Of a stretch of 64,000 nt of DNA, positions 60,215 to 63,189 are shown one piece after another (the stretch's first letter is position 1; each line of letters starts with the position of its first letter). The position numbers were made by a program, and so were the translations under genes. The stretch is from Bacteroidota bacterium (GTDB taxonomy: Bacteria > Bacteroidota > Bacteroidia > Chitinophagales > Chitinophagaceae). The stretch is from assembly GCA_018267725.1 (NCBI GenBank), contig JAFDXY010000023.1, positions 1 to 64,000 on the forward strand, given 5' to 3'. The notes under the pieces are model-generated. The model ran no database searches, was not told the origin of the DNA, and saw only the letters and a list, made by a program, of their open reading frames with translations.

Positions 60215-61087
60215 ATGAACAGAATTGCCGAAAGTGAATTAATTATTACTAAAAGAGGTGCTATTTATCATATTGATTTAACACCCGAAGAAGTAGCTGA
60301 TACAATTATTACTGTTGGAGACCCGGGGCGTGTAGCAAAAGTTAGTAAATATTTTGATAACATTGAAGTAAAACAAGAACACAGAGAATTTGTTAGCCAT
60401 ACAGGTTATATAGGTAAAAAAAGAATTACGGTTATATCTACAGGCATTGGCCCAGATAATATTGATATTGCTATTAATGAATTAGATGCATTAAAAAATA
60501 TTGATTTAACAACAAGAACCATTAAAGAAAAACATACACCTTTAACCATCATTCGTTTAGGTACATCGGGTGCTTTGCAAGAACATATTCCGGTAGATAG
60601 TTTAGTGGTTGGTACACATGGTTTAGGCTTAGATAATTTGTTGCATTATTATCAATTAGCCAACAATAATGAAGAGCAAGAAATTTTACAACAGTTTGTT
60701 GCACACACACAATTAACAGGCAATATTCAACCTTATTTAGCAACAGCCGGAGCAAGTGTAATAAAACATTTTGTTGGTGGCTTTCATCATGGTATTACTG
60801 TTACTTGCCCGGGTTTTTATGGCCCACAAGGCAGAGTGTTGCGTTTAGGTTTATCAAACCCTATGTTAGTTGAAAGGCTTACTACATTTAGGTTTGGTAA
60901 TCATTTCATTAGCAATTTTGAAATGGAAACAAGTGCTATTTATGGTTTAGGAAAATTATTAGGCCATAATTGTTTGGCTGTAAATGTTATAGTTGCCAAT
61001 CGTGTAAGAAAAGAATTTAGTAAAGATGGAGATGCTGCCGTAGAAAAATTATTACAAACTTGTTTACCAATTATTGAGAAGATATAG
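60215..61087 (+). CDS. udp: Nucleoside phosphorylase (uridine-phosphorylase-like)
   Basis: A 290-aa phosphorolytic enzyme that splits a nucleoside into base and ribose-1-phosphate. ADTIITVGDPGRVAKVSKYF gives the phosphate-site GDPxR; TIIRLGTSGALQEHIPVDSL gives the second family motif; NFEMETSAIYGLGKLLGH gives the Met-Glu ribose contact. It resembles uridine phosphorylase more than purine phosphorylases, but substrate cannot be fixed from sequence. Length is normal. The region beyond holds heptamer repeats and a four-helix-bundle gene. Confidence 0.85.
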   Translation: MNRIAESELIITKRGAIYHIDLTPEEVADTIITVGDPGRVAKVSKYFDNIEVKQEHREFVSHTGYIGKKRITVISTGIGPDNIDIAINELDALKNIDLTTRTIKEKHTPLTIIRLGTSGALQEHIPVDSLVVGTHGLGLDNLLHYYQLANNNEEQEILQQFVAHTQLTGNIQPYLATAGASVIKHFVGGFHHGITVTCPGFYGPQGRVLRLGLSNPMLVERLTTFRFGNHFISNFEMETSAIYGLGKLLGHNCLAVNVIVANRVRKEFSKDGDAAVEKLLQTCLPIIEKI

Positions 61088-61094
61088 TTGAGGT

Positions 61095-61150
61095 TGTTAA
61101 TTGTTACCTTGTTACCGAAAATCGTTAATCGAAAATTGCGAGTACCGAAT
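61095..61150. repeat. Heptanucleotide array, left flank of the four-helix-bundle gene
   Basis: TTGTTAA, TTGTTAC and CTTGTTA-type units, then CGAAAAT, CGTTAAT, CGAAAAT, TGCGAGT, ACCGAAT. The 21 bp 61116-61136 are an exact inverted copy of 61566-61586 on the right flank. Confidence 0.9.
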
Positions 61151-61193
61151 ATGAAATTAAATTTAAAAATAATTTTAATATTTAATCTGTAAA

Positions 61194-61559
61194 ATGTTGA
61201 ACCTTTCACACAAACAGTTAGATGTTTATCAGCTTTCTCTAAAGCTAGTAGAAGAAATTTATGTTCAAACTAAAAATTTTCCGCAAGAAGAAAAATATGT
61301 TCTAGTAACTCAATTGCGTAGAGCAGCAATTTCAGTGTCTAGTAATATTGCCGAAGGCTTTGCACGGAAATCAAAAGTAGAAAAAGCAAGATTTTTAGAA
61401 GTATCAAGGAGTTCAATTGTTGAAATTGATACACAAATAGAAATAGCTCTAATTTTAAAATATCTACAAATCGATAATATTCAACACATGCAAGTATATC
61501 TTGAACGATGTTTTATGATGTTAAGTAAAATTATTACTTCGTTAAACGGTTCACAATAA
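61194..61559 (+). CDS. Four-helix-bundle protein (23S rRNA IVS-protein/Avd-like family)
   Basis: A 121-aa helical protein. LDVYQLSLKLVEEIYVQTKN forms helix 1; the family signature TQLRRAAISVSSNIAEGFAR follows, then EKARFLEVSRSSIVEIDTQI and a last helix. These proteins were first found in intervening sequences of 23S rRNA and are related to the Avd protein of diversity-generating retroelements; their role outside those is unknown. No reverse transcriptase gene is in the window. Unusually the gene lies between exact 21-bp inverted repeats built of 7-bp units, 429 bp apart. Confidence 0.9.
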   Translation: MLNLSHKQLDVYQLSLKLVEEIYVQTKNFPQEEKYVLVTQLRRAAISVSSNIAEGFARKSKVEKARFLEVSRSSIVEIDTQIEIALILKYLQIDNIQHMQVYLERCFMMLSKIITSLNGSQ

Positions 61560-61563
61560 CTTG

Positions 61564-61592
61564 CTATTTTCGATTAACGATTTTCGACTTTA
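61564..61592. repeat. Heptanucleotide array, right flank of the four-helix-bundle gene
   Basis: ATTTTCG, ATTAACG, ATTTTCG and a degenerate unit; 61566-61586 equals the inverted complement of 61116-61136. Confidence 0.9.
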
Positions 61593-61618: not shown

Positions 61619-62398
61619 ATGCATCTTACATTTTATAAATATCAAGGCACAGGAAATGATTTTATTATTTTAGATAATAGAGAAGGAAAAATAACACTTA
61701 CTCCTCAACAAATAAATAAGTTATGCGATAGAAAATTTGGTATTGGTGCAGATGGGTTAATGATGTTGAATGCCAGTAATAAATACGATTTTGAAATGTA
61801 TTATGTAAATGCCGATGGAAAACCAAGTAGTATGTGCGGTAATGGTGGCAGATGTTTAACAAAATTTGCTTACGATATGGGCATGAAAAAACAGTCGTAT
61901 AAATTTATTGCGATAGATGGAGAACACAATGCAATACTGGCAGATAATAATTGGATTAATTTAAAAATGAAAGATGTAAATACAATTGAAAATAAAAACG
62001 GAGATTATATTGTAGATACAGGCTCGCCGCATTTTGTAAAAAATGTAAATGATGTGATGAATGTAAATGTTTACAAAGAAGGACATGAAATACGCTATAG
62101 CAAAGAGTTTGAACAAAATGGCATTAATGTAAATTTTGTAGAAGCAACCGATGAAGATGCCATAACTGTGCGTACATACGAGCGTGGTGTAGAAAATGAA
62201 ACTTTAAGTTGCGGAACCGGAGTTACGGCAAGTGCATTAGTTTATTATCATAACGAAACAGGATTTAACAGAATAGAAATAAAAACTTTAGGCGGTAATT
62301 TGGCTGTAGAATTTAATCGCATTAGCGAAAATGTTTACAATAATATTTGGCTTTGCGGACCCGCCACTTTTGTTTTTAAAGGCGAATTTGAAATATAA
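61619..62398 (+). CDS. dapF: Diaminopimelate epimerase
   Basis: A 259-aa cofactor-independent epimerase that converts LL- to meso-diaminopimelate for peptidoglycan and lysine. YKYQGTGNDFIILDNREG starts the protein. The two catalytic Cys are in SMCGNGGRCL (C73) and TLSCGTGVTASA (C198). Another family stretch is ICDxxFGIGADGL-like LCDRKFGIGADGLMML. Length is normal. No other lysine-pathway genes are adjacent. Confidence 0.95.
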   Translation: MHLTFYKYQGTGNDFIILDNREGKITLTPQQINKLCDRKFGIGADGLMMLNASNKYDFEMYYVNADGKPSSMCGNGGRCLTKFAYDMGMKKQSYKFIAIDGEHNAILADNNWINLKMKDVNTIENKNGDYIVDTGSPHFVKNVNDVMNVNVYKEGHEIRYSKEFEQNGINVNFVEATDEDAITVRTYERGVENETLSCGTGVTASALVYYHNETGFNRIEIKTLGGNLAVEFNRISENVYNNIWLCGPATFVFKGEFEI

Positions 62399-62430: not shown

Positions 62431-63189
62431 ATGTTTCAAATACTTCCGGAAGAAAAATGGGAAAAAGTTGAATTCAATTTTAAATACAATAACAATTTTA
62501 TTTTAGAAGTATCAAACCACGGCAACTTAAGAAGCACTCATAAAAATGCAAATAAAAAACCTCTGAAAGGCTCTACCATTAACGGTTATAAAATTGTTAG
62601 AATAAAACTTTTTACAAAAAGAGATAAAGCCACTCAAGAAAAATTTGATGCAGAAAAACAACAACTGTTTAAGCTTGCCCGCAAAATTAAAAGTATGAAA
62701 GCATTAAAAGAAAGCAAGCTAACTATTCAAGAAACAGAAAAACTGTTGTTACACAAAAGAAAAAAACTAACTCAGAAATACAGAAAAGAAACACTTGGTA
62801 GAACTATTAATTATCATGCTTTAATTCACAAATTAGTGGCAGAATATTTTTTACCAAAACCAAAACCTACGCAAACTATAGTTGCACATTTAAACTATAA
62901 TAAACTAAACAATACGGTAATTAATTTACAATGGATGACACCCGAAGAAAACTATGCACACCAACGAAAAAGCCCATACGTTATTAAATACAAAAAACTA
63001 TTAAAAGAAAATATTGTTGTAAGCCCTAATGTTGCTAAGCTTACCGTAACCAAAGTAATGCTTATAAAAAAATTGTTGAATGAAGGCAAAACAGCTCGCA
63101 AACTTGCCAAAACTTTTAAAGTAAGCGATATGCAAATTATAAGAATAAAACGCGGAGAAAACTGGAAAAACATTCCTGCTGCACAATAA
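62431..63189 (+). CDS. NUMOD4/HNH-endonuclease-like protein with C-terminal helix-turn-helix
   Basis: A 252-aa protein. It begins EEKWEKVEFNFKYNNNFILEVSNHGNLRST, a NUMOD4-type start, here cut to its typical VSNHGNLRS. A Lys-rich helical insert (62-125) follows, then an HNH-like region: YHALIHKLVAEYFLPKPKP, VAHLNYNKLNN and VINLQWMTPEENYAH. The usual Asp in NHIDGN is replaced by Asn (AHLNYN), so catalysis is uncertain. The C-terminus is a helix-turn-helix (EGKTARKLAKTFKVSDMQII, RIKRGENW). It could be a freestanding homing endonuclease or a domesticated DNA-binding protein. Confidence 0.75.
   Translation: MFQILPEEKWEKVEFNFKYNNNFILEVSNHGNLRSTHKNANKKPLKGSTINGYKIVRIKLFTKRDKATQEKFDAEKQQLFKLARKIKSMKALKESKLTIQETEKLLLHKRKKLTQKYRKETLGRTINYHALIHKLVAEYFLPKPKPTQTIVAHLNYNKLNNTVINLQWMTPEENYAHQRKSPYVIKYKKLLKENIVVSPNVAKLTVTKVMLIKKLLNEGKTARKLAKTFKVSDMQIIRIKRGENWKNIPAAQ

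Follow-up and report, generated by a model that had tools for sequence, protein, structure and literature searches.

A four-helix-bundle gene between inverted heptad arrays in the udp-dapF gap of a Bacteroidota bacterium: a probable copy of a widespread minimal mobile element

The intervening sequence (IVS) in the 23S rRNA of Coxiella is 428 nt long and has tandem heptamers just 5' of the start of its S23p gene; the passages of that paper on the IVS also discuss inverted repeats, describe S23p proteins as having no known function, and give the Xanthomonas S23p structure as a toroid-shaped homopentamer (PMC4990558). For bacteria of the candidate phyla radiation (CPR), the relevant part of a second report describes IVP open reading frames (ORFs) within insertions of 16S and 23S rRNA (PMC11270868). 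In the portions of these papers devoted to the IVS, the gene, the inverted repeats, the heptamers and a guess of mobility are all present, all of them in rRNA (PMC4990558; PMC11270868). A separate line of work concerns heptamers themselves. Rehm and others reported GGGAATC and GGGGA(C/T)T repeats in Xanthomonas and Nostoc, mostly in four units; the repeats lie mostly between aligned ORFs, with a stop or start codon close by, and those of Xanthomonas often form inverted pairs. The sections on these repeats present them as quadruplex-forming and make no link to a four-helix-bundle (4HB) gene (PMC4692102). TAACTGA heptamers are described in a section of another paper (PMC4679880), and the 4HB gene is mentioned in a table alone in the part of PMC5524665 that concerns it. 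Here we analysed a 64,000-nt stretch of a Bacteroidota genome (positions 1 to 64,000 of contig JAFDXY010000023.1, assembly GCA_018267725.1; hereafter the window, to which all coordinates refer unless another contig is named). In the gap between a udp-like gene and dapF it holds an insert that probably represents a widespread mobile DNA element of minimal design, about 0.4-0.5 kb in size and made of one 4HB gene and terminal inverted heptad arrays.

The udp-dapF element is bounded by exact inverted arms of 21 nt each (61116-61136 and 61566-61586), which in their longer form (61116-61143 and 61559-61586) reach 28 nt at a 93% match. The left arm reads inward on the plus strand as four heptads, CGAAAAT-CGTTAAT-CGAAAAT-TGCGAGT, and the right arm, an inverted copy on the minus strand, starts on the stop codon's third base. 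Between them are an AT-rich leader, which runs from the left arm to the start codon (61144-61193, plus strand), and a 121-aa ORF (61194-61559, plus strand), and nothing else. The exact inverted copies, their 7-bp units and a content limited to gene and leader had all been claimed in the initial annotation and are borne out. Terminal inverted repeats, as in insertion sequences and transposons, are therefore present, and this arm pair is the top inverted repeat of the window for gaps of up to 800 nt (score 23; runner-up 15.5). Throughout the 2.68-Mb genome, the arm 21-mer with up to three mismatches occurred at the two arms and at one further site with 2 mismatches; a reversed control also gave 3 sites. 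The protein matched PF05635 (E 2.9e-31; 108.3 bits against a curated cut-off of 33.8) and TIGR02436, "four helix bundle protein" (99.1 bits against a cut-off of 24), and besides PF05635 Pfam gave just one weak match, bAvd. The sole solved relative found by sequence search was 2gsc (E 3.5e-24), an entry with five chains.

The same architecture recurs widely. We gathered 227 4HB loci from the own genome, its genus, many phyla (80 loci, located via peptide patterns of the udp-dapF element's protein), plasmids (12 loci) and genomes of the family, where the best-scoring loci were taken; near-identical rows were kept in the set. Nine loci had flanks too short for the arm test. Among the remaining 218, which span many phyla, arms were found at 179, as against 11 of 854 windows displaced by 550 or 700 bp. 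By source, they were present at 9 of 10 loci in the own genome, 10/16 in the genus, 92/107 in the family, 56/73 in other phyla and 12/12 on plasmids. Two near-duplicates (L114 and L124) are retained in the arm, period, arm-length and stop-codon figures and omitted from the mismatch pair counts and those that followed. Avd genes of diversity-generating retroelements, which have a related fold, bore arms in none of 17 controls, most of them from one genus (an 18th, with a short flank, was left out). The shifted windows, the Avd genes and the rank of the udp-dapF pair in the window leave a chance inverted repeat with next to no probability. In seven extra genomes, which share some loci with the earlier set, arms were found at 49 of 59 loci tested, and 3 further loci were missed by the profile used. 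The initial annotation had allowed that inverted pairs might not be conserved in any relative; the 179 loci dispose of this doubt. PF05635 matches lie at 10 places in the own genome (2.68 Mb, 31 contigs), and the inverted pairs at nine of them beat 100 shuffles of their own flanks. These pairs consist mostly of 7-nt units, and the unit differs by element (TTAGTAG, GTTGAAT, AATTAAG, AAGTACG, GTGAGTG etc.), the arms being alike inside one element and unlike across elements.

The period of 7 extends over the whole set. Self-identity of the arms in the 179 elements was 0.52 at lag 7, 0.47 at lag 14 and 0.43 at lag 21, with shuffles at about 0.30-0.31; the best lag was 7 in 136 elements and 8 in 28, and the median arm length was 29 nt. 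The left arm of L280 (1493-1664) is expanded into a 172-bp CGTGAAT array, with a right array of about 50 bp. The heptad consensus of 116 clean elements, NWWAGTN, had a total information of 2.98, compared with a maximum of 2.53 over 20 permuted controls. We dropped the idea of a universal heptad motif, because the prominent G column by itself (1.40) fell inside the control range (up to 1.54) and only the order around the G is meaningful. In 67/179 elements the left arm held stop codons in each of the three reading frames, as against 22 in one shuffle set, which is suggestive of protection of the upstream gene.

The heptads change together with the protein. The fraction of element pairs with an arm score of at least 14 was 0.00 at 30-40% protein identity, 0.34 at 60-70%, 0.64 at 70-80% and 0.81 at 80-90%; arm similarity thus stayed at background below 50% identity and rose steeply above 60%. 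A reversed-orientation control remained low, indicating that the heptads are read in one fixed direction, from each end towards the inside. L009 and L108, elements at the same insertion place in two species of the genus, encode proteins that are 57% identical. One has the unit AAGTACG in both arms and the other ATGTACG or ATGTTAG in both arms, so the arms have altered in step at both ends. The co-variation is partly due to common descent of whole elements, and the matched unit change at the two ends calls for either recognition or arm-to-arm conversion.

The distribution of the elements is patchy. The three remaining genomes of the genus all have udp next to dapF and no element between them, with spacers of 4, ~81 and ~167 bp; looking at the udp-dapF site of relatives was a check proposed in the initial annotation. 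The 4HB copy number across the four genus genomes is 10, 7, 9 and 0, and the genome with no PF05635 match is rated 100% complete. Within the family, the gene is present in 73 of 98 genomes, the copy number ranging from 0 to 16. The protein tree required 35 changes of phylum label (minimum 25), of which the Bacteroidota rows required 9, and the own-genome copies lie in different parts. Horizontal spread is consistent with this tree and unproven by it, because the tree is poorly resolved. No match was present in 50,697 phage records, and the viral scan gave 0 relatives. GGGAATC repeats were seen in three viral stretches.

Exact empty sites were provided by cyanobacterial plasmids. At the first site (occupied in L116, empty in L121), 97%-identical plasmids lack ~428 bp, and GTAAT stands at each end of the insert as a 5-bp duplication. 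In a Nostoc sp. C052 plasmid (L123, ~1490-1640), what remains at this same site is a left arm with a truncated gene. At the second, the insert splits a TAATG stop-start overlap and leaves both codons intact, with 3 bp duplicated and ~45 extra bases past the right arm. The third element sits in a 3-bp gap with a few bases lost. The fourth is near the end of a coding sequence, the element's first codon there being a stop, with 7-8 bases lost. Two further sites, one at the stop codon of an integrase gene and one in a cas10-cmr3 gap, are less exact, with empty relatives 77-91% identical. In the Nostoc plasmids L242 and L112, different 4HB elements occupy two adjoining gaps of one plasmid operon, apparently as independent insertions. 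These sites also bear on the possibility that heptad repeats pre-exist as a target and that 4HB genes insert between or beside them. Gene-free heptad arrays in several genomes, and the heptamer repeats known from the part of the Xanthomonas and Nostoc study cited above (PMC4692102), would agree with such a target. However, the empty plasmid alleles that were inspected have no heptads, indicating that arms and gene arrive together, and heptad type tracks protein lineage across unrelated sites. We therefore consider a pre-existing target very unlikely.

Both neighbours of the udp-dapF element are on the plus strand. The upstream gene is uridine-phosphorylase-like (udp-like, PNP_UDP_1; 60215-61087) and ends 28 bp short of the left arm, and dapF (61619-62398) begins 32 bp past the right arm, so the intergenic position given in the initial annotation is correct. 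Downstream of dapF, a plus-strand gene (62431-63189) has an HNH_3 endonuclease domain and a sub-threshold resolvase-type helix-turn-helix, and is possibly a free-standing homing endonuclease. Over the set, 158 elements had both neighbours callable, with gene borders taken from our own ORF calls; both neighbours run along the element's direction in 130, both are opposite in 6 and 22 are mixed. After removal of the element, the gap left had a median of 16 bp in 136 co-directional cases and was at most 20 bp in 77 of them. Gaps of at most 20 bp make up 0.4% of intergenic bases and 10% of gaps in the 64-kb window, a crude baseline drawn from one stretch with 43 called genes. This short-gap placement may reflect targeting or survival, and the two cannot be told apart. 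Examples of placement include a cas10-cmr3 gap and an nrdB-nrdA gap in which the element is antisense to both genes.

The preference for co-directional neighbours would also be expected of an RNA-level element like the 23S rRNA IVS, in which the arms pair in the transcript, RNase III cuts, and the operon mRNA sheds the insert. The excision of the Coxiella IVS by RNase III, as stated in the part of the source dealing with it (PMC4990558), agrees with this, and folding of the udp-dapF element gives a closed stem (z -4.24). Any inverted repeat, however, would give such a stem. Among the mismatches between arms, counted on the sense strand, 146 were G.U-compatible and 169 were of the A.C type (p 0.22), and per element the counts were 54 and 55. 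There is no G.U-compatible excess, and a conserved RNA stem is therefore unsupported. Recognition of the arms as DNA, in the form of ends or of a hairpin, is the better fit, and an RNA-level element seems unlikely to us. Where the initial annotation had offered a mobile or an RNA-level element, it is the mobile alternative that gains support, from the absence in three congeners, the uneven copy numbers in the genus and the empty plasmid sites.

The 4HB gene appears to be maintained. The ratio of nonsynonymous to synonymous substitution rates (dN/dS) was 0.07-0.20 in the 11 pairs out of 14 for which it was computable, the remaining pairs being saturated, and 6 of 26 genus rows had in-frame stops. 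Together these values imply selection at the level of lineages alongside decay of individual copies, as mobile elements show. Purifying selection is also a feature of a host regulatory cassette, whose protein would bind the leader heptads and control the operon, much as TRAP binds triplets, mobility being old and incidental. The position within operons and the common order of the heptads around AGT point the same way. Against such a cassette stand the patchy distribution over the 98 family genomes and the unrelated neighbours, and a leader switch needs no second, inverted array. A regulatory cassette is accordingly quite improbable.

Copies that lack the gene provide a further line of evidence. 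A scan of 773 kb of loci gave 52 more heptad pairs beyond the central element, some of which repeat its heptad and are too tight for a gene. The heptad patterns searched in whole genomes were taken from elements of genomes inside the searched panel. AGTCCGAAGTCCG occurs at 26 and 11 sites in two genomes whose 4HB element bears that heptad and at 0-1 sites in 12 others; among the 25 AGTCCGAAGTCCG loci read, the gene was present at two places. TAGTCGTTAGTGA occurs at 118 and 47 sites in two Atribacterota genomes with elements of that type (G104 and G105, the genomes of L015 and L024), at 15 sites in a Planctomycetota genome (G110), and at 0-1 in 11 others. For genomes of 2.0 and 1.3 Mb, this number of exact sites of the 13-mer, which comprises two heptads, is a very high load. 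CGTGAATCGTGAA gave a weaker result, with 25 sites in one matching genome (18 of them in one array), 2 in another genome with that heptad, and 1-3 in four others. In eight regions of one Atribacterota genome, the copies are 146-310 bp long, with common ends and unrelated interiors, and lie mostly a few bases from neighbouring ORFs. The gene-less copies share their ends with the resident gene-bearing element in G100, G101, G104 and G105, and not in G110. The initial annotation had regarded arms without the gene at many loci as a difficulty. Such arms do occur at many places in some other genomes, yet of the five genomes with at least 10 exact sites of AGTCCGAAGTCCG or TAGTCGTTAGTGA, four also hold a 4HB element with the matching heptad. 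As expected of non-autonomous copies, the gene-less heptad pairs fit this origin better than that of an unrelated repeat. No gene-less copies sharing the ends of the udp-dapF element were found in the 64-kb window. Elsewhere in the own genome, at G000:C31:177541-177575 (L275, L283), a lone heptad array of the CGAAAAA and CGTGAAT types stands directly before a start codon, with no partner and no 4HB gene.

Two enzymes were considered as partners of the 4HB protein and rejected. Reverse transcriptase (RVT_1) was present in 25/73 family genomes with the 4HB gene and 8/25 without it (Fisher p 1.0), which does not suit an obligatory partner. Y1 transposase was present in 58/73 and 15/25, respectively (Fisher p 0.066); its counts correlate with those of 4HB genes (Spearman 0.43), which may reflect general mobile load.

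A mobile element with one 4HB gene and terminal heptad arrays remains, in our judgement, the probable account of the udp-dapF insert. It brings together the architecture and its recurrence, the match between the arms, the way heptad and protein vary together, the occurrence or lack of the element at otherwise intact sites, the gene-less copies, the sense placement in short operon gaps and the purifying selection. Several observations weigh against it. The Pfam profile search found no transposase or catalytic domain in the 121-aa protein. RVT_1 and Y1_Tnp are both absent from 12 of the 73 4HB-bearing family genomes, including the own genome with its 10 copies, so neither reverse transcriptase nor Y1 transposase is required. 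The udp-dapF copy has no exact empty site, as the spacer has diverged in the congeners, and the junctions at the four plasmid sites follow no single rule and show no constant target-site duplication. Similar arms were seen in 1/148 same-genome pairs and 117/5957 between-genome pairs; the gene-bearing elements do not multiply inside a genome. Finally, in G110, which served as an unplanned test because its TAGTCGTTAGTGA sites predict a 4HB element of that type, 0 of the 12 4HB elements are of that type, which counts against the model unless it reflects element loss or an incomplete bin.

If the element is mobile, its movement could be pictured as follows. The 4HB protein, whose solved relative forms a ring of five, would bind its own heptads at both ends, perhaps with one heptad unit per protomer; 5 protomers x 7 nt comes near the length of an arm, which hints at such an arrangement. 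The bound ring would mark the ends and bring them together, and a putative activity supplied by the host would cut and join, moving the element. The same host activity could also move gene-less copies that bear matching ends. Insertions at stop-start junctions of operons would be favoured or survive best, and there the host operon would transcribe the 4HB gene. More tentatively, and with rather less confidence than we place in mobility itself, these elements may form a new transposable-element class in which the end code is variable. The sole gene of this class would encode a non-catalytic pentameric 4HB protein that reads a lineage-specific heptad and co-evolves with it, gene-less copies would be its satellites, and the rRNA IVS and the orphan heptamers of cyanobacteria and xanthomonads would be special cases.

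Should every S23p-type gene prove to be the only gene of a mobile element with heptad ends, what it does could be tested directly, and a candidate origin would be available for the orphan heptamers seen in several phyla. A protein-nucleic-acid code with many natural variants would be on offer, and the question would arise of how an element moves without a nuclease. Among open PubMed Central papers, we found neither a general 4HB element with heptad ends nor a paper joining the IVS and heptamer strands; within that literature, the rRNA form and the unexplained heptamers are already in print and the general element is not.

The closest known system is the 23S rRNA IVS, for example that of Coxiella burnetii, which in the part of the source describing it has the same kind of protein and heptamers 5' of the start, inverted repeats being discussed as well (PMC4990558). 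The udp-dapF element shares with it the layout of a gene within inverted ends, and the kinship proposed in the initial annotation is strengthened by these heptamers. In contrast to the IVS, the udp-dapF element lies outside 23S rRNA, the elements here occur in protein operons, and their arms are matched without an RNA-pairing signature, have a lineage-specific heptad and have gene-less relatives. Avd (NF033474) is a related four-helix-bundle protein to which the udp-dapF protein has a weak match (E 3.5e-5); the score of 24.1 bits is below the NF033474 cut-off of 80, and the 17 Avd genes over that cut-off are those that proved armless. The Xanthomonas and Nostoc heptamers share with the present arms the 7-nt units, mostly four in number, and the placement by stop and start codons, as far as the sections on these repeats describe them (PMC4692102).

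Miniature inverted-repeat transposable elements (MITEs) and REP/RAYT systems also provide short non-autonomous copies with inverted ends in intergenic spacers. Unlike these, the 4HB element has no transposase or Y1 protein, and its ends are heptad arrays that vary by lineage.
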